Origin: Mesaphorura yosii
Lineage: Eukaryota > Arthropoda > Collembola > Poduromorpha > Tullbergiidae
DNA length: 64,000 bases
Direction: 5' to 3'
Assembly (NCBI GenBank): GCA_009869945.1
Contig: WIXG01000150.1
Location: 110,787-174,786 of the forward strand
A program made the position numbers and the translations under genes. Positions 3,505 to 27,842 of the stretch are shown here, piece by piece. Position 1 is the stretch's first letter; every line of letters begins with the position of its first letter. Below the pieces are notes generated by a model that saw nothing but the letters and a program-made list of their open reading frames with translations, was not told the origin of the DNA and ran no database searches.

Positions 3505-6500
3505 TCACAAATCATCGCCGTAGTCTTCATTGACAAGGAATTGGTATACAAAGGCTTCTTTTTGTCTCTCAGACTTTGAATTTGGTTTGGACTGATGGTG
3601 AGGATCATGTAGCATTACACGTCCGAAAAGAACAGCTGAAAATTAATCAACTTTTTGAAAACATATCCAAACGGGGGCGGACTTTCATAAGAAATGTACA
3701 AACCTAAGAATTTTGGATCCAGGCCATTCTTGTCTGAATGAACAAGCAGTTCCCTCAGGAAGGAGCACAGGTACACAAACACGTTTTTGTGTGCAGGTGG
3801 AAGCTGATTCAGGATCTGCATATAGAAAAACGTGATAATGCCTCTTCACCATTCTAACGAATCGATTCTTACCATTTTGCAGTGAGCATAACTGGAGGCT
3901 GATTCGATGCATTTTTGGTGGTACTGGAAAGGCACAACGGGTTCGGGAAATGACTCCAGTAATAACAGTAATACTTCGGCAACAGAGTCAATGCCACCAG
4001 CTAAATTGATAAAATGAAATGAAATGCCAACAGTACTGAATAGGTCCAAAGAGGTGCTTACGCATTGAACTATTCGGAATTTCATCAAGCCAATCCCTGA
4101 TTTGAAGAATTTCCTCATTTAAACCTGACTGTGAAAATAGAGGCTTCTGCATTCCAGTCCGGAACAGACGATCCACAACAAACCACAATTCTTTAGGAAT
4201 GTCGTAGTAGTTCATTGGCATTGCTCCCTTTTCCTGTCGTCAAATGCATCATTAGATGGTGGCATCAATATTTGACTTTGGCCCATGGCCCTTGAGAAGC
4301 AAAAAGATCTTTACCAGTTCGATAAGCTTTCCAGGCGTAATATGACGAAGGGGTTCCGAGAGATTTACAAGTGAACATATTGAGCAGCCAAAGACACTTC
4401 TTTCGTATTCAGCAAGTATCGTGATAAAAATATCTTTTCCACCCTCCAAATGAATTACTAAAATATCATAGAGTGTGTCCTTCCCAACATTCAAGTTTGC
4501 AGCACTTTTCTTGTCGACGTACACTTCCAGCTTTATTTCACACGATTCTCCTGCAAGAGCAACAGGCAAGAAGAAATTAATTCAATTATGGAACTTGATC
4601 TTAAACAATGTAAATCTCACCAGCAGGAATAAAGGCAGACATGGGTTCTATCGTTAGCCAGTCCTTGCAAACTGACATGTCATTCAATTTGTTGATAAAG
4701 TCCAAGCGCACTGCGAACTGTATAAGAAACAAATTATTGACACTAGAAAATTCTGAAGAGGGGCGTGCATGGACCTTTCTAACTGTACCTGCCCAATGTT
4801 TCGCACTGTGAACTCTCTTCGTACCGGTTCGTAAAACTTGACAACGCCAAAATTAATCTCATTCCTATTCGAGTGCGACAAATTATTGGCGTTCGGGATA
4901 TCGACTTCGACGTGTGGTAGACACTTGTTTTCCTCTTTATCCAACCATTTTAATGCTTCCTCGTAGTACTTTCTATACCTGGCACTATTTATCACCTTCG
5001 CCTAAACACAAAATGTTTCATTATTCAATACCATTCAAGCCGGATACCGTATAGAAAAAGAAAGTTTACCTTGGAGTCCATGTACGCAGATACCGGTTTG
5101 TGATCACTTAATTTGTACGAGGATATTGAGACGTAATCGAGCTGGCTAATATTCCTGCCTTTCCATAGTATCCTATCACACCATGCTGGTGAGCGATTCT
5201 TTTCACTGGAGTCCCAGTTATCAGTGCCCGGATCATATTTATAAGTAGGTCTGAACGTGATCGGTCCCTCCTCAAAACCTTTAAACACACATTCCAGCTT
5301 CATTTGCTCCTTCAGCTGATCGTACTTCAAAACGTCTGCATATCTCTCATGCTCAATTAGCCGCTTAGCTTTATCGACGTCAAGCGATGTCGGGTCAATG
5401 CGGTAGTTCATGTCACCAAACCAGAACACCTGACTGCAAGAAGAAGGGCATATTCTTCAGTTACTTTCATTTCTGAGTCAAGGGACGCAAAGGAACTTAC
5501 TCGTGATCTTTAATGTGTAGGATGCCCAATCCAATTTGGGACAAGTCGAAGGCCAACCTGCTTAATATTTGTTGATAATCCTGGTTTCTTCGATAGTATT
5601 CTTCGACATGCGCAGCAAGATGGCAATTCACAAAGCAAATGGAGGTTTCCTCCAAATCAAATCTGACGGCAACACCGCCTTTATTTCCCTGAAAGTTTAG
5701 TAATTAAAAGCCTGTTGCTGTTTGCTTTTCAGATTTCTCACCATTCTGCCGAGAATTCCGGTTCCCACATATTCTCCTTGAACGTTGTGCAATGAGCGGA
5801 CTAGCTCCTCCTTTACGAACACAATTAGCATCATTCCGACCAGTCTAATTAATTTGACTTTCTTGTATTTCGCCTTCGGGTGCAGACCCGCCCGCACGGC
5901 CCGGCTAGGATAATGGAAATACCATGAATGTCTTCATTACATTACAGGCATCTTCATTTATCAGAGAAAAAGTTCTATGTACTTACAACCACTCATGCTC
6001 TCGGAGACTGTCGTTAAATAGAAACGCCTCCTTTGACAAGTCCAGTTCTTGGAACCCAATCGCGTAAATATCTGGCGGCTCGGGGGTCCTTGCGAGCCAC
6101 TCGGATAAGCAAATACTTCCAGGGCTTTGGCCATTGACATTCCAGGTGGCAATGTAAATCTTGTAATCAATTAAGTCACTGTACAAGTCCTTTTTGGAGT
6201 CTAGAATGTTTTTAAGTATGAGCTCTCTTCCTTGCACTAAATTTAGTCCTTGTGACTGCGATGGAATTATTAATTTGTCTTGTCGGGCTGCACCCAAGCT
6301 GACGTCGTCTTCGTCTTCATCACTCTGAAATCAAAAGGCATAATATTAGAGCCATGTAAGCAAAAGTTAGTGATTTAACATCTTTCCTCAGGCTACACTA
6401 AAGTGCAAGTACCTAAGTACCTTGCTACTGCATGGTGGTTTGTGAGACCTGAATATGATCCTACATAATCTGTCCATTTACCAGTAACCTCACTCAATTT

Positions 6501-9514: not shown

Positions 9515-10232
9515 TTGCCAGTTTTGAATATGAAACGTTGGTTTCTAAAATACTCAATGCCTCGCGTTCGCGTGGGTATGGGCGACTGTCAACTGGAAGC
9601 ATTCCGATGTTTGTCTTCTTTCGTAAATCTCTGGTACTATTTGCATCCTACCAAATGCACGTGTAACACCGAAAAGTGGTCGTTCTTCATCGCTAATCGT
9701 GAACTTCGACCAAGTCACCCACTAAAAGGCAGAATAAACGTGTATTGAAATGTAATTGCGATCCCTTCTTTCCGTGTGCCTCGTAATGAAGGAACATTCT
9801 AGGCCAAAGTGAGCAGAAAGGAAGAACATACCGCGAAATTGAAATCGGCGTTTCGACGTCGTGTCCGTATGTTTTGTGTGTTTGTTGCACGAGAACCCTG
9901 GTTTTTGGAAATGGAAGAACAAAACAACTCAATGAATTGTCAAAAACATGTTCTGGTTCTGAACCTGTCAAGCCTACGCGTTCAACTAATCTGAATCATT
10001 GAGAACAAGTGAACAAGTACAACTTGGCTTTTGTTTGACTCAAATGCACATTGTACCTAATAATGTTTCGTATTGGGGCAAGCCTATAACGCACACTTGT
10101 CAGGAAATTGTCACGAATCAGTCGGCGAAGAAAAGGCAATCCGGGCAATGGGCAAGTGATTTCTTACACAGGACCTTGAAATCTGGAGAAAGCGTAGCGA
10201 GTAACTTTCGCAGGTCGTGAATCATTATCACA
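9515..10232. other. Spacer upstream of the gustatory receptor
   Basis: 3' UTR of BLOC1S1 up to about 9760, then the upstream region of the receptor gene. No conserved ORF or RNA gene seen. Confidence 0.55.
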
Positions 10233-11638
10233 ATGCTTGGGAAAATTGCAGTGCAAGCGATTAGCCGGACGGTCAAGGTCGGCTGTTTTCTTTGCTACTT
10301 GCCATTTGAGTGGGACAACAAAACCAACACAATACAGCTCGTCAAGTCAAGATGGAGGCAGTACTCGCACTTCATAATCAGTGTATGCCAAATTACGCAT
10401 ACAGTCTTCGCGTTCCTGAGAATATATCAGCTGATCTTGCTGGGGAGAGTCAACTTGAGTGAACTGATGCTCCAGTTGACTATCACGGTCTCCTCTGCTC
10501 TCTCAACTTCAAACCAGATAAACAACTGGCTCTTTGGGCCAGAAATGGTTGACTTTGTCAATAAGTTCTTGGCATACGAGCAGAATCTCACTCGTAAGAA
10601 CAGTAATGAACACCCGAAACCTCATAACTTGATATACATAACGTCAAACATGCTTTTCCAGGAATTTATCAAACGGCAACATTGGGCGATGGGCATTTCG
10701 AGCTATTTCTAGTATTTTTGGGGTGTTCCGGCTGCTTTGAAATTCCGTCGCTGGCCTTCCTGTATCTGATCCGAAGTGATTCGCCAATTTACATCGTCTC
10801 GTTAATTCCACACCAGAGCCGCTGGACAAAATTTTACTTTCTCCCGTATGAGCTCGTTACGAACGTCGGAGTTGTCCTGAACTTGCTGTTGTATTGTTTC
10901 ATATTCATGTCGTTCTTGTGGAGCGAGTCGTTCTGGCTGGAACAGTTGCGGTAAGTCTCGTGTCACCTAAGTCTAAATTGTTCGTGTCAACCACTGCTAA
11001 GGCCTTGAACTCAACACCTTTTGACTAACTTCCTGTCCAATAGTTGCGCTGATTTGGTTCCATTCAAGCAGCGAAGCACGTGCGTCAGGACCTACAATTC
11101 ATTCCGGAGCCCATCGAATCTAATCAGAACTTATCGCGGCCTTCAAGTGTGCATGAGTTGCTTTCATTCGGCCACAAAGTGTCTCGCGTTGCCCTCACAA
11201 AACGCTGTGACGCTGATACTGACGGCAATTGGGCTGTTCGGAACAATCCGCTTCCATAACCTGAAGCACGTCAATTTCATTTCGTATTCCGTCTTCCCCG
11301 TCGGGTTCATAATCATGATTACGTGGGTGCGGCTTATTTATCCGACTGCAGCCCTCATCCATGACAATTCAACCAGATTCCGGCTTTCATGGATGGCCAG
11401 TCTGAATGCAGCGAGAAGAGCTACTCGATATTCAAGCGCTTTGACCTGCACGTACGCACAAGGGTCATGCACGAGCTATTACTTCCAGTACAGGCAGAAG
11501 GAATTCGTTCGTTTCCTGCGATCATGCCGAAACATCAAGACAGAAAATGGGTCGTTCTTTTATTACAAGAAATCAACGATGGCCGTCATTATCGATGCGT
11601 CGGCGATCTACTCCATGACGCTGCTTGTTGGGTTCTAG
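10233..11638 (+). CDS. Insect-type gustatory receptor (7TM chemoreceptor)
   Basis: Predicted ligand-gated ion channel of the Gr/Or superfamily in chemosensory neurons. Three exons, 10233-10593, 10662-10950 and 11044-11638, join in frame through introns of 68 and 93 bp and give 414 residues, the usual Gr length. Several hydrophobic segments are present, and the last one, MAVIIDASAIYSMTLLVGF, aligns with the C-terminal Gr signature around TYhhhhhQF, with the canonical Q-F replaced by G-F. An N-terminal CYLPFEWD block and a long inter-TM loop are seen. The ligand cannot be told. The stop codon lies only 18 bp from the stop of ebony on the other strand, so the 3' UTRs must overlap. An odorant-receptor identity is less likely because of the overall motif pattern. 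Confidence 0.8.
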
Positions 11639-11656: not shown

Positions 11657-14600
11657 TTAATTTTGCATCTGTTCCTCTTCTGGCAAAAGATCGGCGTGTT
11701 CTGTGAGTGTTGCTGGCTTCACTTGCTTCCACGCGCAAATCACCTTTTCTGAGTCGGGCGCCATGTGAAAAGGGTACGTCCCGTCTTGAGCCTCGAATTG
11801 ATTAATGCGATATTCACAAAGGACCTCGTACCCGTACAGCTCTCCACAAACTTGCTGCAAAGTGGAAATGGGCATGTTCAAATTCTAACTTCAGATGTTC
11901 AATATAAGTTTAATTGATCTCGTGTCTTGTAAATTGAACCAATAAAGTCTTTGCTCAAATTCACTTACCTGCGTCAAAGGATTTGTGTTTGTTGTCAGAA
12001 TTCCAATTAACTTATGCTCCCCTGCAATTGCAATGTTTTGTTCCTCCATGTACGCAATTAATATGACATTTTCTGCGTCGTCAATTTCCTCGTGAGTGCC
12101 CATCATGAAGGAGTGGAGCAATTTGCTCTTGCCCTTGGGCAGCTTTTCTCTAGTACAACAAATGAAAAAGCACAAGTGCAAAAACAGGAGGCCAAAATTA
12201 AGACAAGCATAAAATGGGCACGTTCAACACGCCTTCAGTCATAGAAAATGTTAACTTACAATTGCTTCTTCTCAACAAAGTCCAGCAGATCCAGGCAGTG
12301 TCGAATTCCTGGGGACGCCAGAATCGAATGTAATGGTTCGTCGTACACGTCAAAATTGAGTCCAACAGCAATGAGTTTCTTGTCATTCTTTCGCCGTACA
12401 ACAAAACTATGAAAAGAACACAACGCCAAATCCATCAAGAGGTGATGATGCAATATTTCGATTAATGGTTACACGCAGAAATGAGTACCTGAAGCCTTTC
12501 TCAAGCAAATCTGCCCAAATTGACCGGATGCAAGTTACAAATTCGTCATGCGTTGCCTGCGTGTATTTCTCCAGATCTCCCTTTTGTGAGAAACTGTATG
12601 CGATTATACTGTATGCAAAGAAGTAGAAAAATAAACTGGAATGAGTCTGGACCAAAGAATTCAAGGTTACGTTAATAAATTCGATTTATCGAAACTCTGC
12701 GTCATACTTGATTGCCTCTTCTTGATGCCCCTGCTGCAATGGCTCCACAAGATACAAATCGCGCCCTCCCTGACTGATTCCCTCTTCGATTTCTCCTGAT
12801 CGTGGTCTTCGCTTGTTGAACACCAAAATTTCAATCACTTGACGCATGGACGTGGCCTTGATAAAATCCGGAAGAGCTGCGAAAGATAAAAGGACAAAAC
12901 TGCACATCAAAATGAAGTACATTGAGTGGTTAAAAGGGTGGGATTGTGAGCATACAGATGTGCAAGCCATTCTCGTGTAATTTAGTGACCATGATGACAC
13001 TGTTCAACGATGTTCCTCCGACGTTATAAAAAGATTCGTCCAAAGCATACGCAATCCTCTGCTGAGATTTCCCAGTCACATCCGAGAGTATGTACACGAC
13101 TCTTTTCGCGATTTCCAGGTGCTCCTCAGGAATTCGGAGCATAGACCATTCGTTGAACGGAGGCCCTGATAATTGGATGGAGAAGTTCTGAGACCGTGAT
13201 ATAAAAATTGCGAACGCTTACCATTGCAAAGGTACTCACATTCTGTCCGTTCGTTCTTGTAAGACTGAAGCAGGCGTTGTCGGTCAACTTTCCCATTTAC
13301 AAGCAGTGGAATTTCAAATATGACCTCAATGTCCGGTACTTCATAGGCGCGCAAACTCAATTTGCACATCATGTCCAGTTGCGAAGCAGACACACCCTCT
13401 TGTGGAATGATAAACGCGACAATTGCCTAGAAAGATTCTGCTCATGTGATCACCCAATGCGAGCATGTTAATATTAAAATTTACTTGATGCTTTGTCCCA
13501 GGCTTAGAACACAGTACAACCGCTTTCTGAACCAAATCCTGCTTGGAGTTAATTGTCGCCTCAATTTCGCTCAAATCGATCCTGTATCCACGAACTTTGA
13601 GCTGTGAGTCGATGCGACCATCATAAAAAAGTGTGCGAATTCCGTCTTTCGGTTTGAAAATGTGTCCAAAGTCGCCAGTGCGAAAGAGCGTTGTGAACCC
13701 TAAATTAAGCAGCCATGCTGGTCTCAATTCTTATCAGATAGTCGTGTAATTGTTTAAAATTGCTCACCGACCCTGGGTTCTTGTATGTGGATTCTCGACA
13801 AATTTTTCCGAATTTGGAAGTCCGACGTAACCAGTCGCTAAATTATGTCCGGCGATATAAAGTTCGCCCTTTTCGCCTTCAGGAACCAATTGCTTCTTAT
13901 CATCGAGAACATAAATGAGCGTATTGTAAACGCAAGTCCCTAAATATTCAGAGGAGCATCATACGCAAAGTGTGAACATCTTGAATCTTATCTGAGCAGG
14001 GAGTATACCAATCGGAACGTGTATCTCGTGGGTTTGAGTCTCGGCGTCCTTAATGGATTCAAATACGTGAGCCGTGACATCACCCATGATTTCAGTTGAC
14101 CCATAAAAGTTACATAACTTCACTCCAGATGAAAATCGCTCGTAGAATGCAATGAGCAATTCTTTTGTCAATGTTTCTCCGCTGCAAATCCACAGTTTGA
14201 GGCTCGAGAGAATCGTCTTTCCAGTACCCTCCTCATCAAGCAATTTGAGCGTCTGCAATATGGCGCGCAGCAACGACGGCACGAGAACAAGCCTCGTAAT
14301 TTTAAAGTCTTCCAGACGCTGGATGAGGACGTCTGGAGATGATGTGACTTGTTTATCGAAGATGTACAACGGAAGCCCTTGCAGAAGTGGACCAAATATT
14401 TCGGAGACGGAGTCCACGAAAGTGAGAGCAGTTTTAAAACAGCAATTTTCATCTGCCGTGTAAGGAAACTCCTGCCATTGCCAATGCAGACGGTTCAGCA
14501 CGGTTCTGCGTCAGATTGAAAGGAAGCGATTAGACTGAAGCACGACCCACAAGGCATGGAGTCAAAGTTGAATTCTAAGTCTACCTGTGATTTAGCCGAA

Positions 14601-15379
14601 CGCCTTTTGGTGCTCCGCTCGATCCAGACGTATACAGAACGAGCGCAATTCTTTCTGCGAGCAATTCAAAGCTACTTTGGAATGGTTCTACGCTGATCTC
14701 ACTCGCAGCCCGCTTATCGTTGTGGACACCCGTGAATAAATGCTCCAAATTGACAACTTTGGTTTGGTCTTGAACAGGTTCAAATTTGCAGAGGGTGTGA
14801 AAATCAGAAATGACCAGAATTGGACAACAGTTCGTCACAATCTTGACTATGCGTTCCTCCGGGAAGGAATTGTCAAACGGGACGTACGCAGCGCCAAGTT
14901 TCAAAATGGCGAACAGGACGAAGATGAGTTTGTCGGAAGGAGGAATGCAGACACCAATGACTGTGTCCCCATCTGGGTTCAAATTCTGCATGGCGTTCGC
15001 CCCGAATTGCTGCTTCATCAGGTCAGCGAGTTTGGTTGAGATTTCATCGAGCTCTTGGTACGTGTGTCGACGTTCTCCGTCAATCAGGGCGATCGCGTCC
15101 TTCTTTATTCGCTGGTCAACGAAGCCGGTGTGAAAATATGGGATTAACGATGCATTTCCTGGATATGGTTTAATAGCGCCTTCCAGCAAGCGGCTTAATT
15201 TGTCTGAAATATAAAATATGGCTGAGTTAGAGAGCTACGTCCACGGAAAAGACAGTCCCTCGCGCCTAAACACAACACTTAAATGTTCATTCGTTCGCTT
15301 TACATTGCCCAGGACATGGTTGTGCTCGAAAACTCGCGTATACGTCACTTTTTCGGATTTCTTGAGGTTGAATGTCCAT
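11657..15379 (-). CDS. ebony: Beta-alanyl-bioamine synthetase Ebony (NRPS-like)
   Basis: Joins beta-alanine to dopamine or histamine, acting in cuticle tanning and neurotransmitter recycling. Twelve exons: 15304-15379, 14585-15203, 14009-14505, 13772-13939, 13485-13699, 13222-13426, 12956-13165, 12708-12876, 12489-12608, 12260-12406, 11969-12149, 11657-11854; 934 residues (fly 879). Adenylation motifs are intact: A3 LYTSGSSGAPKGV, A5 NFYGSTE, A7 LFRTGDFG, A8 GRIDSQLKVRGYRID, A10 NGKVDR with the catalytic lysine. The carrier domain has GGTSLNS (serine near residue 646). The C-terminal amine-selecting domain carries LLHSFMMGT and ILTTNTNPLTQ. The exon 4 donor appears non-consensus (GTCGGT) but preserves frame and alignment. 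The start MDIQPQEIRK is the only ATG that reaches exon 2 cleanly; the N-terminus is less certain than the rest. Confidence 0.93.
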
Positions 15380-16546: not shown

Positions 16547-19262
16547 TTAATTCCCACATTCGTCTGAAACGAAAATAGGAGAGCATTGCATAGAGGGAAC
16601 AAGAATCGACTAATTGTGGTTTGACTTACCTCCAAAGCATGGTGATTCACCAGCGGCAAACAACTCAGCGTCAATCACATCAAAAAGCGGTTTGAAATAA
16701 TTCAGCATTGGCTGTACGCTTGGAAGTGCGTGTCCGGTCATATTTGTCCACGTTTCCGGCCAAGGCGCAGAGAAACCAGTTTTAAGCATATCACTGCAAC
16801 ACAAGCAAAAGGTTCTAGCTGAACTATCTCTCGTACGAGCGAACTAGGCGAAATAAGCGGTCGAACTTATAAAATACCGAGGACCTATGTGATCATTTAC
16901 CTTAAAATTCTACCGGCTGCCAAGCTTCCAGTGTAGTCGCACTGATACAGCGGCTGAGAGTTTGGATTTCCAGGCTGGAACTCGCCGGCAGCTTCGCATG
17001 CAACTTGATGAAATTGGAACATCATGATGTAGCTCATGAAATACCTGCTCAATCAGTTAATTATACTCAGAAGTCATTCATGACTAGTGGCATCCCACAC
17101 TCGTTTTTTGATTATGACTTCTGGGCTTACCGTATGTATGGAATGTGCGCTACAATAGGGCGAGACACAGCTGGATCAAAATGATCCATTGACCCACGTG
17201 GCGCTGGAGGAACAATCCTTTGGTACATCGTCCTCAATTCCCACCACCGATCAGTGTAGTTTTCTTCAGTCACTCTTCCGCTAAATGCTTCCCATCTCCA
17301 TTTATCGTTTGAGAGCGCAAATGGTAAGAACGGAATCTGCAGAAACATGGGCCATGAGTTGTACCGCTACTAGACTATTACACGACGCACGATAGACTCA
17401 CTTGCCACAATGCCCTAGCATACAGCTGATTCACATCCGACTCTGTGACCGGACTCTTGCCAACGCAATTTACAATTGTTGGGATGTCCAGTCCGAGGAC
17501 GCATTTCAAATGCTTTGCGCTGATGGCTGGAAGTCCAAACCCGTTGCCGACAGCCTCGTGAAATCCTGGATTGCCACCCTCCCTGAAAATATAGTCTTCG
17601 TTGGTGTACTGCATGAAGTACTGCATGTGCCCCATTTCGTGGTGAATGATATCCACATAATTCTGGGTGACGCTCCCGCACATTTTGATCCTATCCGAGA
17701 TAAATAACGTCAAGTAAAGCCATATTTAAAAGCATTCAACTCTTAGAATATACGTACCTGAAATCCGTGCTTCCTTTCCCCAAGCAGAGATCCCACTCCA
17801 TCGGTGAAGCGCAAAAGACTATGCGGCCATCGGTTGGTTCAACCATCATAGTTTTCTCCCAAAATGTGTCAGTCATCGGTTGGAAGCCTAAACCTTGATA
17901 GAATCTATCGGCGTCCTCAAATATCCGTTGCACCGTGTAACCCTAAGTTTCGATTATATTCGTTTTTACGCGATATCTTCTGGTCACATTTCCATCAGCA
18001 CTTAAAACCAGTTAAACGAGATTTTGAGACCTACGTTTTGGACCATTGAGTTTGTTACATCAATCTCAACAGCATTTGCAAACGGTTTAGTTCCGGTGTA
18101 CCAACCAGACCAGTCTGAGCCCAGCATGTTCTTCAGTAAATTCGCTGGCACCAAACCATACTTGTCGATTCTGCTGCTGTATTCTGGCATTTGCCGCAGT
18201 TTCATGCGAATGTAGGCCAGCAATTTCTTGTACATTGGTTCAACCTGGTACCACATATCCTCGACGAGCAGTTCGTAGTGTGTTGAGTTCCAGCCGGGAG
18301 ATTCGTCGTCAAATGTTGCCAGCATCAATTGGCTCATGTCCTGAAATCCTGCATACGAAGACCATCAACTCATTTAGTTCTAAAGTCTAAGGCACTCGCC
18401 CCGGTAAAACGAGTATTTTATTCACCCACCATTTGCTTGAGCCATTTGGTTCTGCTTATCAATAAACTGTGTGTAGAGAGACTTTGAAACTGAACGACCC
18501 ATTGCATCGTGCCATTCAGACCAATAGTACGCGAGTTCGTCGTAGTTTGAGGCGGTGTTCAGTCGCGACGTGACATCTGCGGAGGTATGTCAAGTAGTCG
18601 CATTAAAAGTATCAAATATTATTAAGTCAGTGACAGAGTGACACTTCAAATCTCGGAAACTAACCAGCAAGAGTCAAGTCGCAGTTTGTTTCACTGCCGT
18701 ACTCGCAGATGCGCGTGGCCGCATAGAGACTTTCCATCTGGAGTCGAATCTGGTTCATCTTCATGTATACATTCCAAATATCGGTTAACAAGCCTGTCAC
18801 AGAGCGTTTACGATTGAAAGTGTACCTGATCAAAGTCGGCTTCCGACATTGATCCGCGCCCAAGAATTTCCAGAAACTTAAACTGCCTTCGAATGGTTGG
18901 GTCAACGAAATCCAGCCAGTTTGAAAAGTTTGCTGCGATTTGCTGCTGAACTTGAGCCTGGAACCTCGCGAAGGCTTCGGCAGCTTGTGCCTGTGAAAGA
19001 CGCGTTCAGTAGAAGCATATGTGATAATATGAAAATATATTATGCACGTATTTTGGTCGCTTACAGCAGCGGCATCGTTTTCAGCTGTCACGTTTGTCAT
19101 GGACGTCCATCTTGCTTCTTTCTCCTTGTTGCACTCAATAGAATACTGGGTGTCCAACGATATTAGGAACAGCTGCGCTTCTTCTTCGGTGGCGCAATTA
19201 GAGATGTCCAAAACAGCTAGCAAAGCGATGGCACAAATCAGGAAGAAATTCGTCTTCGCCAT
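16547..19262 (-). CDS. Secreted single-domain angiotensin-converting-enzyme homologue (M2 family), atypical active site
   Basis: Zinc dipeptidyl-carboxypeptidase family. Eleven exons (19065-19262, 18826-18990, 18665-18758, 18430-18576, 18035-18348, 17758-17942, 17402-17690, 17131-17336, 16901-17044, 16630-16793, 16547-16563) give 640 residues. A signal peptide is clear (FFLICAIALLAVLDISNC) and there is no C-terminal membrane segment, as in fly AnCE. Zinc motif HHEMGHMQYF and the third ligand in GFHEAVG are kept, as are the residues matching human testis ACE Tyr520, Arg522 and Tyr523 (PYIRYF). The positions equivalent to His353 (FCASPMEWD), Lys511 and His513 (SRPIVAH) and Asp415 (AVGN) are changed. 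The fold and metal site should therefore be present, but transition-state and C-terminal substrate binding look altered. It could be a peptidase of changed specificity or a weak enzyme. Confidence 0.92.
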
Positions 19263-19965
19263 TTTATACGTAAGCGGTACGTGTTACTTGCGAAATTCAC
19301 TTCACTTGCGAAAGTGATTTTCGAATGGAGAGGAAGAGGGCTTATCGGTTTTATTTATGTCATTTTCTGAGAGCCTTGTTTCTTGCAAACAGGTTCGGCT
19401 TATAGATTATAGTCAAGTGGACAGGTGATTTAAGTGAAATCGCCCGATTTGATAGTGTACTAAAATACCAGAAGTTCGCCACTACCCACTGCCAATTCTC
19501 AAGTACTGCGCGTGGCATACTCATACATACGCCGAAAGCAAACACTGAAAATTCAGAGCATTTCAGTTTAGATTGACAGCTGCAACAGGTGTATGGTATT
19601 CCCTGCTTTAAAACTCTGAGCTGAGGAAGACGGATGGTCGGGTTTTCGGTGGACCAAGGTTCAAAGGTTGTCAGATTGGCTGTGGCCAAGGTTGATGGTT
19701 ATTGCATCATCCCAAAAATCCCAGTCAATGAGATTCACTGGCACTACAAACACCACCTTGGTTTGTTAAATATCGTACTGTGCATTGCCCTGAATTCTTT
19801 CTGTTGTGTTTATGTGCGAATGATAGCATGGCGTGCCTGAAGGCGTGCGTCGAATTAAATTGCCGATAAACTCTCCAATTGGAAATGATACAATTTATTA
19901 TAGAAGTTGATTCAATTTATTTGACAAGTTCCGAGTTATTTGTATCAGTTTCTATTAATTAAGCC
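19263..19965. other. Spacer between ACE promoter side and PDSS2 3' end
   Basis: Upstream region of ACE and 3' UTR of PDSS2, AT-rich towards 19900. No conserved ORF or RNA gene recognised. Confidence 0.55.
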
Positions 19966-21903
19966 CTATAATCGTAGCGTCTCAATGAACTTAGTCAATA
20001 TTTTTCGTGAAGGAGTTGATTCGCAGTACGGGCTCAGAATATTTATGTATTCTAATGTCTCCTCCTGCAGTCTTTGAAATGCATCAATGGCTTGCTTCAT
20101 TGTCACGTTGTCTTGCTTGACAGTGTCAAAAATCTGTAAATACAAAACGATGCTGTAAGATAACGAATGTATCGAAGGCTACACTTTTCAAGCCAACACG
20201 TTTCATACCTCCGTATGTGAGTAATTGAGTATGCCCGGATCAGCTTGTATTTTGTGAACCACAGGCAGCAATCCGACATCCAGCCAATTTGGCTCCTTGA
20301 GTTCATCTCTCTCAAAGTACCGAATATCACTGTATGCTTGGTACGTCATTCCCAACAGACATCCGAGCTTGTATGCTCTTTCTCGCATCGCGTCGTCATG
20401 CCCAGAGAAGTACACCATGGAACTCATCGTGTTCCCCATCAACGATCCGATGCTAAGACTTGCTTTCTCGACCCACGAATTGTACGTGAACTGTTCAGGC
20501 TTGGTCGAATTGATGCCAAGAATGAATTCACTCTCGCAATAGTCCATGAGGAACTTGCAAATGAGTCCAGTCACGAGTTGGCATTTGAGAGCACCAAGTT
20601 GCATCATCTTCTGCGTCCACAGTAAATCTCCAATAAGTGTGGCCGCTTTGTTGGCCCGATGTAGATTGTCAATATGCTTCCGTTGTTCCTGCTTTGTCAG
20701 ATCCACCTGTTTGCGGTCGATGGCTTGAATCTCAGACACGTCCAGAATCCGTTTGTGAATCTCTTCTGTGATGTACGCGATTTCAATAATCTTTGATAGA
20801 CGCACATGTCTAAGGACGAATGCAACAGAATTAACCTTCCCATACAATAAATGACTGCAAGTCGGCTGGACAAACCTTTCGATAAGTAATTTATGAGGCT
20901 CGGGAGGCGGTGGTTGCGGCTCACCGCTTGGAAGCTGCTGCTGTGGCTGAGGTGCCGCCTGTAATACTTCCTTTTTGTACCCAAACATTTCCGTCGCTAA
21001 CAGGATCATCATGGACCTCCACAGTGGGTAAGGATTCGTCCTCCAAGTGCAGGTTACGCCATCCTCCTTCGCTTTGTTGTTGAATTCTGCTTCGAGAATC
21101 CTGTATGCAACAATAAATACGATGAAGTGTTTTAGTGCAATTCAGTAATATAAAATTGTATTACGTAAGGCCGAGTAATAGACAGTAATAGTGCATTTCA
21201 CAACAATGAATTGCATATTGGCGCATACTTCACTTGTCTGCGCGTAAGAATGCGCAGGCGCAACGCAATGCAATGCAATTGTGGTCAATTGCAATTTTAC
21301 ATTGCGTATCTCATCTTGAAAGTATTTCAAGGTTCGCCTCACGCTTATTGCGATCGTTGATCGCCCGCTCGCGCGTGCCTGTGTATTACTTGCGTGTACT
21401 TATCAAGCCAAACAGCGCAACGCAGCGATCTTGAACTAATTTGAGCTCAAAAGCGCGTTCAGGGCTTGACGGTCGGTGGTGCCATTTGCGCCGTAAACTT
21501 ACTTGACGAGATGCAGCAACGGATGGTCGATGTGTGCCACTTTGAAACTGAAGAGTGTGATGATATCCGTAAAGTTCCCGAAATTGTACGTCATTCCGGA
21601 GTTGATGGAAAACCGTTCGTTTCCAAGAAGTAGCTCGGCTTCGTAGCCGGTGTCGAGCAGCGTCGAGTAGCATTGCTGTCGGTTTTCGAAGGAAATGAGC
21701 TCTTTGGGCGACTGGCTACTGGATGAAATGATTCTGGAACCACTGCCAACAATGCTGCTGTTATGGAGGAAACTTGTCACTTGCGGCGTTCGTACAACCA
21801 AACTGGATGAAACGAATCTCGTAAGAATATGTGTGTATCCGAGCGTCAGACTTTGGAGTATGTTTGGATGGTGTGTCGAGTGCAGACACATAAGCTTCAA
21901 CAT
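19966..21903 (-). CDS. PDSS2: Decaprenyl-diphosphate synthase subunit 2
   Basis: Non-catalytic partner of PDSS1 in making the ubiquinone side chain in mitochondria. Exons 21503-21903, 20876-21100, 20209-20809 and 19966-20133 give 464 residues. Start chosen at 21903 (MLKLMCLHST), with an alternative ATG at 21921 that sits across a possible 3' splice site. The N-terminal 70 residues are Ser/Thr/Arg rich, consistent with a mitochondrial import signal. Typical blocks are HPLLHLVK, GDLLWTQKMMQLGAL, and the helix with YCESEFILGIN. The DDxxD aspartate motifs of catalytic prenyltransferases are absent, as expected of PDSS2. A proline/glutamine-rich insert (QPQQQLPSGEPQPPPP) replaces part of the family's loop. 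The 66 nt segment 20810-20875 has GT-AG ends, is in frame and stop-free, and may be an intron or retained. Confidence 0.9.
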
Positions 21904-23185: not shown

Positions 23186-24718
23186 TCATTCATAGCAAAC
23201 ATCAATCGGTTCGTACTCGCACTCGCCTCCTTGCACGGTTGCTTGGCACCGCATTTCCAACCTTTGATGTGCTCCAGGTCCAGGATTTCGGCCGTAGAGA
23301 TTTGTGGGTTCGAGCAGCTTGCTGAAAACGTGGCACATATAGTTGACACTGGCACGACAGAAGGGCTTTGTCTTGTCCGAAGCCACAAACTGGTAAATGG
23401 GGTACTCGAACATCGTATCACATTTCAGAATGTGCTAGCAGAATTGCTAAAGCATTGGAACCGCGATAGCTGCTTAAACAAAAATTTCTTCACTGTACTT
23501 GTTAAGAGTTCACATCCGTACCCGAATCAACGGCAGCGTGCTAATCAAGAACAAATTCTTAAATCCCAGTTGTTTTCCTTCCTCGATAGTGTTCCTCAGC
23601 ATTAGCTCTGTTATCAGCACGTGATCTGGACTGATTGTGTCCACGGTGGCAATCATGAACGGCTGTATCAGCTTTCCTTTGTTGAATATGAGCCGAATTC
23701 TATATTCGAAGTTTGACATCTTAATTTTCTAATTGGCCTAGCCGTAGAAAGGCTTTTATGTGTAATGGCTAACTTTGCAGGTCTCTCGCAATACTCAAAC
23801 TTTTCGTAAATGTATCGAAGTGGTTTGTCAATTTTCTTGACCTTGATTGCGTTCGAATCCCAATCGATGTTAATTATCACGACGACCACTTTATCATCAG
23901 CCTTGGACAAGACGACTGATCTTCAATACAAAGAAACCTTGGTGTAAGCCAATGTTATAAAGGAAGAATCTCGAGGATTTGCATTACACACTTACGACAA
24001 GCCATCTCTCATGACGGAGTCCCAGATATCATCGAGAAACTCCTCGTAGTCATTGAATTCGGCACTCACGTGGAGCGCAAGGTAGGATTTTTCCGGATAG
24101 AATGTGCAAATAATCCTGAAAGTTAGATTCTGTCGAAGTCTTTTGGTAAACTTAGACAGTGAACTGATGTAAGTACCTGAATACATCACTACGATACGCC
24201 TCGCGCAGGTCCACAATGGTAAACAATGACTGAGACAATGGCTCCCATCTGCAGACGGGATTTGTCATGATGTCCACCACGTCCAGCAGTTTGTCACAGG
24301 CGATGAAGTCGTCCACACCTAGCAAATTAGCACACCCAACAGAATTCATGCAAGTTCCGGGTTGTGTTAAATGACACAAACTCTCTTACAGATATCGTAG
24401 CTCGTCACCTTGAGACGTTCAATCAGCACGACAATATTCTGGGAATTTCCGCCCAAGTTCCAGTACGAATCATTGAAATTAGTCACAACAAAGCGCTGTG
24501 ACACGCCAAGACTGGGTGCCACTTCCACACACAAAGCCCTTGTGTGCTCCAACTTTTCAGGCAGTAAATGGAGCTCTTTCCACTCATGTTTCGTGCCTTG
24601 AGTCGATAATCGGATTAGAATTAGATTACTGAGTATTCGATGTACATGATCTTCTTGAGATATTATAATTTTGTACCAATTTGTTCGCGTCCAGTCTTCC
24701 ATCTGGCAGCAAGTCCAT
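23186..24718 (-). CDS. Ebony-like carrier plus amine-selecting domain protein (3' half of a split ebony paralogue)
   Basis: Seven exons read as 24646-24718, 24390-24596, 24177-24318, 23996-24115, 23774-23920, 23522-23699 and 23186-23434, all phase-compatible, giving 371 residues from ATG 24718. The protein starts at the end of an adenylation domain (DGRLDANKLVQNY, matching A10 of ebony with the lysine replaced by arginine), continues into a carrier domain with LGGNSQN (phosphopantetheine serine near residue 76), and then an amine-selecting domain with FIACDKLLDVVD, DDIWDSVMRDGL, FMIATVDTISPD and the C-terminal block YPIYQF. Each block aligns in order with the intact ebony at 11657-15379. No adenylation domain can be joined to it in frame: an in-frame TAA lies just upstream at 24737-24739. 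Either a separate gene after fission of an ebony duplicate, or the 3' remnant of a decaying gene. Splice sites and frame are intact throughout. Confidence 0.7.
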
Positions 24719-24834
24719 ACTTGGCACCGGGTATATTTAGGGAATTTCGTCGTTGGGCACTTTATTCTGGATCGCCGGTGATACGGAAGTCAGGTCCACA
24801 TTCTCCTTGAGACCGTGGCCGCCACAATCACTGA
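24719..24834 (-). pseudogene. Decayed duplicate of the ebony-like A10 exon
   Basis: Reads as a second copy of the exon at 25535-25747, aligning residue by residue, but only across a frameshift near 24808 (VIVAATVS in one frame, KENVDLTS onward in another) and an in-frame TAA at 24737-24739. Its last 24 codons (24646-24718) remain open and form the proposed first exon of the downstream gene. Confidence 0.6.
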
Positions 24835-25534
24835 TGTGCACTGGCTCCAGAGGCTCTCCTACATCCAGAATATAAAAGTAAATTACAGCAGTGCCTGGCC
24901 TAGGCGCACTTACCAACCTTTTCTGAAGCACCAGCATATCTTGGCCTTCACCTACGCTAGCATGCTGGGGAATTGGAAACGATGCACAAATTGTACGGAG
25001 TAATTTTGAAACCCTCATCAGACTTTTTGGAGGTTTGTGAAGCCTAGTCTCACGTTATTTCCTTCACAATAGTTCAACATTTTATTGGCGTCAAGTTGTG
25101 GACCCTTTCAAAGTCAAGTTTCTCAAATGACATGACAACAATGGCTATTAGCTGATTGAAAATTCGGCAGATTCATGACTCATGAATCTAGAAAGTTCCA
25201 CTACTCCCAGATTTGGCTTGCACCTTCTGAACATTTAGCCGACCAACCAGAAGAAAATGTATGAACTTTAGTCTGTCTATGCTTATTTCAGTGAACCCTA
25301 TTTTGCAGCGACAATAAACCGTTCAAGAACGCATGTAATGAAATAGCGAAAGCGAATGGTTGCAGATGGGGAGACAGACGGACTGAACCGACTACTCGTA
25401 CAACTTACAATTTTATTCATTTAACATGAGTGCAGATCGGCCTTCTGCTCGATCAGCGTTCAGAAAGTTCAGTGCGTTCAGCACCGCCAGGGTTCAATCC
25501 CATCAAGCTTCAGGTCGGTCAGCGTTCAGCCCGG
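24835..25534. other. Spacer between the two halves of the split ebony-like locus
   Basis: Contains a minus-strand AATAAA at 25412-25417, about 118 bp after the stop of the upstream half, and another near 25086, which fits a transcript end here. A minus-strand ORF starting at 25018 (MRVSKLLRTI) could be an upstream exon of the 3' gene, but I found no strong support. No other adenylation exon is recognisable. Confidence 0.5.
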
Positions 25535-27842
25535 TCAGCCGTCAGCTCCTTCATCATGCCCCGTTTCGTACTTCTGAACTAGTTTCTCAGCGTCCACCTG
25601 GCCCGTGTCAGTTTTTGGAATTTGGTCAACAAATACAAACTCCGGAATCATAAACTCGGGCAGTTTTGATCGCAGCTGAAAATCTATTTCACCAAGAAGC
25701 GTCGCTTCCTTGAACTGCTCCTTCAGGACTGCGAAAGCCACCACCGTCTTTAACAGATAAAGAAACATTTAAACTGCCATGTGTCTTAAAATGCGGCCGG
25801 CCAACGTGTTGAAATGTAAGCACCAAATTCACGCACCTGATCGTAGTTTCCTGGGTGGAGCAGCTGAACGTGCGCTTGCTCAATTTCTTCCATCGCCAGC
25901 AACGTCTTTTTGACGTCGTCCATTGTAAAATCGTGGCCTTGGTGATGAAAGAGGTTATCAGTCCTTCTTTCGATCAGCAGACTTCGCTTCTTGTCTTTAC
26001 ATCGTATCATTCGTCCGTAGTCACCGGTACAAAACAGGCGAGTGAAATCTGTGCACCACACATAACATATTTTTGCGCATCTTTGCTCTGAACTACTAAA
26101 AGTGTAGCCGCTAACTTGGATTTCCATCCGCATTAAGTGGATTTGGCACAAACGATTTGGCATCCTCAGAGTCATCGGTATAGCCCAACACTACAGGAAG
26201 GCCAGAAACACAAATCTGTCCCTCCTCGTCTTCGCCAACTTGCTTCAGGTTCGCATCAAGAACGTAAATTCTTGTATTCGGGAGAGTTTTACCTGATAAA
26301 GCGAAATAGCCAGTAGCGCAGAAAGACCGTGGATTGAACAGCTCACCAACAGCCAGTCGTCCGTGGACTGTTTTGTGCTCCACATCTGCCATTCTCTTGA
26401 ATTTCTCACAGATCACATCACCCGTGAGCTCCGGGTGGCCGTAAAGGCAACAGAGAAGCTTCCCGCTTGGAAATATGTTAAGGAATTGTGCGGCAAAGTC
26501 CCTCGGAGCTATTCTGCCTCTACAAATGACATACTTCAAATGCTTCAGGATGGACTTGAGTTCAGAACGCTTAAATGTTGAGCACTCCTTTATAAGGTCG
26601 TGAAGCACTTCCGGACTGAGGCAGATCCTCGTTATTTGCTTATCACCGATAACGTGAATAAAGTAGCCCATCATCTTCATATCTCGTTTCGTGAGGATGT
26701 GCAATGTGGTCCCTACGAAGATAGTCATGGTTGATGAGATGGCACAATTTTGCTACGCTTACGAATGACAACGCTGTAATAACCTTTGAGTAAGGGCCCG
26801 AATATTTGTAGAATTGTTTCACAACTTGAAACCGGCACGGTGAGACAGCAGTTTCCATTTTTAGCAAACGGAAGCTCTCGCCATGCCCAAGAAAGACGAT
26901 TCATCAGGTTCATGTGTGAAATGCCTGGAATGTGGACCCGTGTTAAATATGTACCCGCAAAATTCTAAAGCAAGATCGTAAATCGTGCGAATCGTACGAA
27001 CTCCTTGTGGATTATCGGAGATGCGTCTAGTGTTCTGAATGACCACCGCCAGCCGCTGTTTCGTTGTGAATGCTGAGTTGATGATGAACGGATATAGTCC
27101 AGGTTCTCTCTGGAGCATGGACGGACATATCTTGGCCATTGCAGCTAAAAAGCCTCTGCTCCCTCGCCTAGTCGGGTTCGCCGTCGGAACTTCAATGCTT
27201 AACCACAACTCTTCAATGCTAATAATTGTGCAGAGGTCAGAGAAGTCTTCCGAATTGTACTTGCACAGAATTGGGCCGGACTCGTCCGTGATGAGCACCT
27301 TCGGTGAAAAGCGAGTTAGGATCCCCAGAAGCACTCCTTCGGGATACTGTGGATCCAACGGCAAGTATGCGGCCCCAATTTTTAGTATCGCGAAGAGAAT
27401 CACAATTAACTTCTCAGATGGTGGCAGGCACACGGCAAATATCACGTCTCCACTGGGTTCCTTTCCTTCGTCAAACATTACGCGTTCAATCAACTGCAGT
27501 GAGAGCGCCGTTGAGAATGTGCTCAACTCGTTAAACGTCAAAATTCGGTCGTAGAAATCGATGGCCGTCTTGGTTCCGGTAATGGTCTTTCGCGTATGAA
27601 GTGCATTGTGGAAATACGTTGTGAGTGGTTCAAGCTCTTCCCTCTTTAATTCATAGTCCTCGCCTTGGATGTAGCCGCAATCTTGCTCTGCAAGCAATAG
27701 AAATTGGTGAAAAGGCTGCTAGACGTGCTGATAAACGGTCAAGTGATTTACCCTCCCCACAACGCAACCTCGGACAGCAGACATCTTTCTTTTTGGCTTC
27801 TGGTATCTTGTCCTTACTTGTCTTTGGTTCAACGGCAGCCAT
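25535..27842 (-). CDS. Stand-alone ebony-like adenylation domain with degenerate catalytic motifs
   Basis: Six exons (27752-27842, 26998-27687, 26763-26924, 26116-26712, 25837-26048, 25535-25747) join in frame to 654 residues ending right after the adenylation domain with its own TGA. Co-linear with ebony: FAVCLPPSEKLIVILFAILKIGAAYLPLD near the N-terminal core, NRLSWAWRELPF, YGHPELTGDV at A5, LFCTGDYG at A7, and TGQVDAEKL at A10. Key catalytic features are lost: the A3 phosphate loop (LYTSGSSGAPKG in ebony) reads VIQNTRRISDNPQG, A8 is disrupted (RRTDNLFHHQGHDF), and the A10 lysine is glutamine. A short leader MAAVEPKTSKDK comes from its own first exon. Probably cannot adenylate beta-alanine; it may bind ligand, act as a scaffold, or be decaying. 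The last exon has no donor that would join it to the downstream carrier exon in frame. Confidence 0.72.

Follow-up and report, generated by a model that had tools for sequence, protein, structure and literature searches.

A diverged ebony paralogue in two open units beside an intact ebony gene in the collembolan Mesaphorura yosii

We analysed a window of 64,000 nucleotides from Mesaphorura yosii (assembly GCA_009869945.1, contig WIXG01000150.1, positions 110,787 to 174,786), in which two ebony-related loci lie on the minus strand. The first of these, E1, occupies 11657-15379 and had been called an intact ebony in the initial annotation; our spliced model, with 12 exons, 929 amino acids and no internal stop, bears this out. 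E1 comprises adenylation, carrier and amine-selecting domains with all nine compared motif blocks present, matches the Pfam families AMP-binding (3.3e-62) and PP-binding (3.2e-5), falls under the cut-off for AMP-binding_C (19.7 vs 24.5) and matches 6dym, the entry labelled Ebony in the structure collection, at 2.4e-35. The second locus, E2, runs from 27842 to 23186. It had been described as containing ebony domains in the order and on the strand of E1, and this holds: in the alignment of E1 to 28100-22900, performed with a purpose-written spliced aligner, 261 of 877 residues are identical and there is no frameshift. Between the two loci are an angiotensin-converting enzyme-like gene (Peptidase_M2, 17378-19283, minus strand; 3 of 3 ORFs tested match) and, at 20203-21141 on the same strand, an ORF that weakly matches polyprenyl synthetase (25.1 bits against a cut-off of 27). 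Another ORF, at 10221-10712 on the plus strand, is chemoreceptor-like by eye and has no Pfam match at E up to 0.01.

E2 consists of two open units of seven exons each, which together amount to 1,004 codons in 14 exons with neither stop nor frameshift and are jointly 29% identical to the neighbouring E1. Unit 2a (25535-27842, minus strand) is an adenylation-domain ORF of 629 amino acids, with exons at 27842-27752, 27687-26998, 26924-26784, 26712-26347, 26292-26116, 26048-25837 and 25747-25535 in the refined spliced model, and it exceeds the cut-offs of both AMP-binding (2.9e-38; 132.1 vs 29.9) and AMP-binding_C (3.9e-6; 28.1 vs 24.5). Core A10 (TGQVDAEKLVQKY), in the first of its two copies, falls in the last exon of this unit, as does the TGA stop; here and below, A3, A4, A7, A8 and A10 denote NRPS core motifs. 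Unit 2b (23186-24718, minus strand) is a carrier and amine-selecting ORF of 375 amino acids, modelled in the same way with exons at 24718-24646, 24596-24390, 24318-24165, 24115-23996, 23920-23774, 23699-23522 and 23434-23186. As had been proposed, it is open from the ATG at 24718, with the frame running to 23186. The carrier exon (24390-24596) retains the attachment serine within LGGNSQN, and the unit matches no Pfam family at E up to 1, PP-binding included. The earlier statement that all exons are open and bounded by GT-AG sites likewise stands, since neither unit has an internal stop and all 12 modelled introns, 49-89 bases long, are GT-AG. During modelling, a stop placed within the C-terminal exon of 2b by early alignments disappeared once the acceptor was set at 23434, and a first 2a exon ending at 27769 was discarded because it throws the rest out of frame, the donor after 27752 being in frame. 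The TGA of 2a (25537-25535) and the AATAAA 118 bases on, which the initial annotation had taken to end the unit, are both present, but the signal is weak evidence because AATAAA occurs three times between the units (from 25417, 25086 and 24766). Short, imperfect GCTGAAC-type repeats can be seen by eye immediately past the 2a stop (25535-25440, minus strand).

A search of the genome (93 Mb in 1127 contigs), together with a spliced model with two introns, identified a further intact ebony, E3, on a separate contig (C160:39470-42298). Its start codon is predicted only, and both model introns sit in alignment columns common to E1; terminal introns once proposed for it (2046-2600, 2716-2962 and 5793-6310) were dropped from the later model. 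The genome searches gave no further locus for the amine-selecting part (30 matches with 30 candidates scored, and 10 matches with 5 candidates scored); the remaining matches of the 30-match search hit the adenylation part, and one of them, C420, extends into the carrier part. None of the genome matches listed is a paralogue closer to 2a or 2b than E1 and E3 are, and the search for a haplotype or recent copy of the E2 locus returned only E2 itself (one candidate scored). C938, C420 and C394 carry long NRPS-like open frames (1450, 3156 and 1145 amino acids, respectively) with AMP-binding matches; either contamination or the acquisition of NRPS genes could account for them.

Pairwise identities are 358/896 between E1 and E3, 258/882 between E1 and E2, and 234/889 between E2 and E3. 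Seven of the 11 E1 introns are matched in E2 by both column and phase (columns 486, 556, 629, 802, 906, 956 and 1022), and for a further two the phase is identical but the E2 intron is displaced by 6 and 10 columns. The first E1 intron is not alignable to that of E2, both being in phase 1, the E1 intron at column 313 has a neighbour of a different phase in E2, and E2 has an additional intron at column 360. On the tree, the branch of E2 has a length of 1.40, against 0.57 for E1 and 0.84 for E3, and the placement of E2a has a support of 50; five other loci were considered for this tree, of which three yielded sequence, the other two being without the motif used for extraction.

E2 bears several marks of coding sequence. 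Of the fourfold codons at residues shared with E1, only 18 of 60 are the same in 2a and 6 of 20 in 2b, the frames persisting; the codon-position GC resembles that of E1; and the exon's own frame is the best by codon use in 12 of the 14 exons, another frame being clearly better in 26924-26784 and better by a hair in 24718-24646. The fourfold divergence, the persisting frames and the codon use all point to a long coding history. Against a present function of E2 stand its long branch and the altered motifs described below.

The motifs associated with catalysis have changed in most cases. In 2a, the A3 loop reads QNTRRISDNPQGV (TSGSSGAPKG becoming TRRISDNPQG), only 3 of 15 A8 positions are retained and the A10 lysine is replaced by glutamine, whereas E1 and E3 keep A3, A8 and this lysine; an active Ebony enzyme would be expected to have all three motifs intact. 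The A4 aspartate, which we take to have a functional role, is a glutamate in E2, while A7 is retained at 5 of 5 positions. In 2b, the carrier core is kept at 6 of 10 positions, including the serine that such an enzyme needs, but the two putatively catalytic blocks common to E1 and E3, by which we represented the amine-selecting domain, are not preserved despite the match of 2b to 6dym: KGDLEKYT has become KSYLALHV (2 of 8 retained) and NTNPLTQQ has become STLPLIRH (2 of 6 of NTxxLTQQ). Where E1 and E3 have the same residue, E2 shares it in 36 of 91 motif columns and in 118 of 259 other columns, which is no difference (Fisher p 0.33); this comparison is not blind because the motif ranges were picked after viewing the alignment. 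Where the other two sequences agree, the corresponding values are 36/42 in motifs and 118/188 elsewhere for E1, and 36/39 and 118/211 for E3, two controls that draw on one common set of 36 motif columns and hence are not independent. With most catalytic motifs altered, the units most likely encode non-catalytic proteins.

A second copy of A10 (DLLPDGRLDANKLVQNY) lies in the first exon of 2b (24646-24718, minus strand), which begins with an ATG flanked by A at -3 and G at +4. Upstream of it, on the same strand, 24740-24961 probably represents the adenylation C-subdomain a second time, in decayed form, and is followed by an in-frame TAA (24739-24737). Compared with E1, the segment 24737-24646 that holds the second A10 scores 47, a value reached by 0 of 200 shuffles (maximum 38). 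The remnant before the TAA scores 44 alone, which was reached by 3 of 80 shuffles of the whole linker, 4 of 200 of 25060-24741 and 1 of 300 with residues 490-600 of E1 as the query. When remnant and second A10 were aligned together with introns disallowed, the score was 58 against E1 (shuffle maximum 46, 0/60) and 51 against 2a (maximum 41, 0/60), and the region was not detected with E3 as the query (33, reached by 46 of 60 shuffles); with introns allowed, the scores were 79 for E1 (0/60), 57 for 2a (2/60) and 51 for E3 (4/60). Partial overlap of two copies, the pattern left by duplication and degeneration, is thus present in the doubled A10 and is not seen with the E3 query.

The two A10 copies share DAxKLVQxY, which is absent from E1 and E3, and agree at 16 of 48 residues, 10 of these through different codons. 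Over the 48 codons pS is 0.81 and pN 0.55, and five control pairings of the same codons slid out of register give pS 0.68-0.91 and pN 0.61-0.82, so that the codon count supports an old duplication weakly. In the linker, the frame ahead of the TAA scores 0.18, little different from the 0.14 of the best frame in the remainder, and open stretches of 105 codons are not rare, numbering 100 in the window with genes included. We also looked for remnants of the missing domains: in the linker none of 8 comparisons exceeds its 15 shuffles, and in the flanks none is clear in 16 comparisons with 15 shuffles each, three on the plus strand reaching or exceeding their shuffles (42 vs 41, 45 vs 41 and 45 vs 45).

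The doubled A10, together with the in-frame TAA and the weaker remnant, fits duplication followed by complementary loss better than a single cut. The initial annotation had proposed fission of the gene, and two separate open units do exist, making a split possible; however, one cut leaves both the doubled A10 and the altered motifs unexplained, and we rejected a simple one-cut fission of a single enzyme because A10 is present twice. We consider it roughly an even call that E2 is a diverged ebony paralogue that was duplicated in tandem and then decayed into two most likely non-catalytic units. The duplication would have covered the paralogue wholly or partly and probably happened long ago. What survives of one copy would then be the adenylation part (2a), and of its twin the carrier and amine-selecting part (2b); the second A10 hairpin between them would be left over, and so, with less certainty, would a decayed piece of the adenylation C-subdomain. 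In the order that we infer for these events, the loss separating the domains could postdate the duplication, and both units would have stayed in frame while most of the ebony catalytic motifs were altered. The products may be two non-catalytic proteins, a pseudo-adenylation protein and a carrier/GNAT-fold protein, or just one of them may still be made; in neither case would 2a and 2b be a split beta-alanyl-amine synthetase. An internal duplication of the A10 region alone would fit as well. Against duplication and decay we count that 2a scores far above the Pfam cut-offs and that A7 and the carrier core are retained.

A possible, though less probable, explanation is that E2 is one gene with alternative 3' ends, in which a short transcript ends after 25535 and a long one omits A10 and joins the carrier exon. 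The initial annotation had argued against any such join on the grounds that the last 2a exon has no donor in the needed phase, but a candidate phase-1 GT donor is found after 25693 (TTG|GTGAAA, score 4.4), along with two phase-1 GC sites that score below zero. The join from 25693 to 24596 (phase 1; donor 4.4, acceptor 6.9) is open, as is that from the 26048-25837 exon to an acceptor at 24702 (phase 0; 7.4 and 4.5), which runs open into the carrier exon, and these site scores fall within the range of the modelled introns, whose donors score 2.5-10.1. Exon order and phases past the break also agree with E1. Yet both joins lose the core A10 that E1 and E3 possess, and the second A10 copy and the ATG at 24718 would lack a role. 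Moreover, the splice-site matrix is small, its training set being the 25 modelled introns of the very genes to which it was applied, and it also passes many further donor and acceptor pairings, so that chance sites of such quality are expected. Since open in-frame joins exist, the sequence alone allows one transcript and the splice argument for excluding it fails as stated; one transcript and two are both compatible with the locus, and the sequence cannot decide between them.

It is unlikely that E2 is a recently inactivated pseudogene, coding until lately, of which the open units are the remains. The altered catalytic motifs, the long branch, the TAA in the linker frame and the two other intact ebony genes in the genome would all agree with this, but 1,004 codons in 14 exons without stop or frameshift and GT-AG sites in 12 of 12 introns do not, and the spread of motif changes across both units suggests long survival without catalysis. 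Less likely still, fission of an NRPS-like animal gene may have produced a pseudoenzyme pair: two expressed and long-separate genes, one coding for an inactive adenylation protein and the other for a small carrier/amine-selecting protein, whose products would act jointly without catalysis, for instance by partnering the intact ebony enzymes or serving as their decoy. True fission of an active enzyme, in which a free-standing 2a would load a free-standing 2b in trans like type II NRPS pairs, appears highly improbable: the complementary adjacent domains, the retained carrier serine and A7, and an AMP-binding score well above the cut-off are outweighed by the changes in the A3 loop, in A8, at the A10 lysine and in the conserved amine-selecting blocks, and by the doubled A10.

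We conclude that E2 is real and somewhat unusual, a degenerate duplicate of ebony that lies in two open pieces, and that it does not amount to evidence of a working split NRPS. If both units are expressed, duplication and complementary loss would have broken up an animal NRPS-like enzyme, and E2 would offer a natural test of the ebony scaffold without catalysis; if they are not, it would be an ordinary decaying paralogue adjoining an intact ebony. We found no report of a split ebony in the titles and abstract openings of the papers listed on ebony, Collembola gene families and gene fission.

Free-standing adenylation and carrier proteins are familiar from DltA/DltC and EntE/EntB. As in 2a and 2b, the two functions lie on separate ORFs, but the adenylation domains of these pairs keep their core motifs, whereas that of 2a does not. 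Ebony itself, the beta-alanyl amine synthetase of Drosophila, has been described as a single-module animal NRPS (PMC10531068). The E2 locus has the same domain order, and residues 131-321 of 2b match the Ebony structure 6dym at 6.8e-13, but E2 differs in forming two open units, in having A10 twice and in the alteration of most catalytic motifs. Duplication-degeneration is cited or tabulated as a route to gene fission in two further papers (PMC4249797, PMC3395120). The monkey-king family (Wang, Yu and Long 2004), cited there, is tabulated as a case of retroposition and fission dated to 1-2 million years. By contrast, the candidate genes 2a and 2b both retain their introns, adjoin each other and are strongly diverged where they overlap; the likeness lies in the complementary parts retained in two copies of one ancestral gene, as we propose for 2a and 2b.
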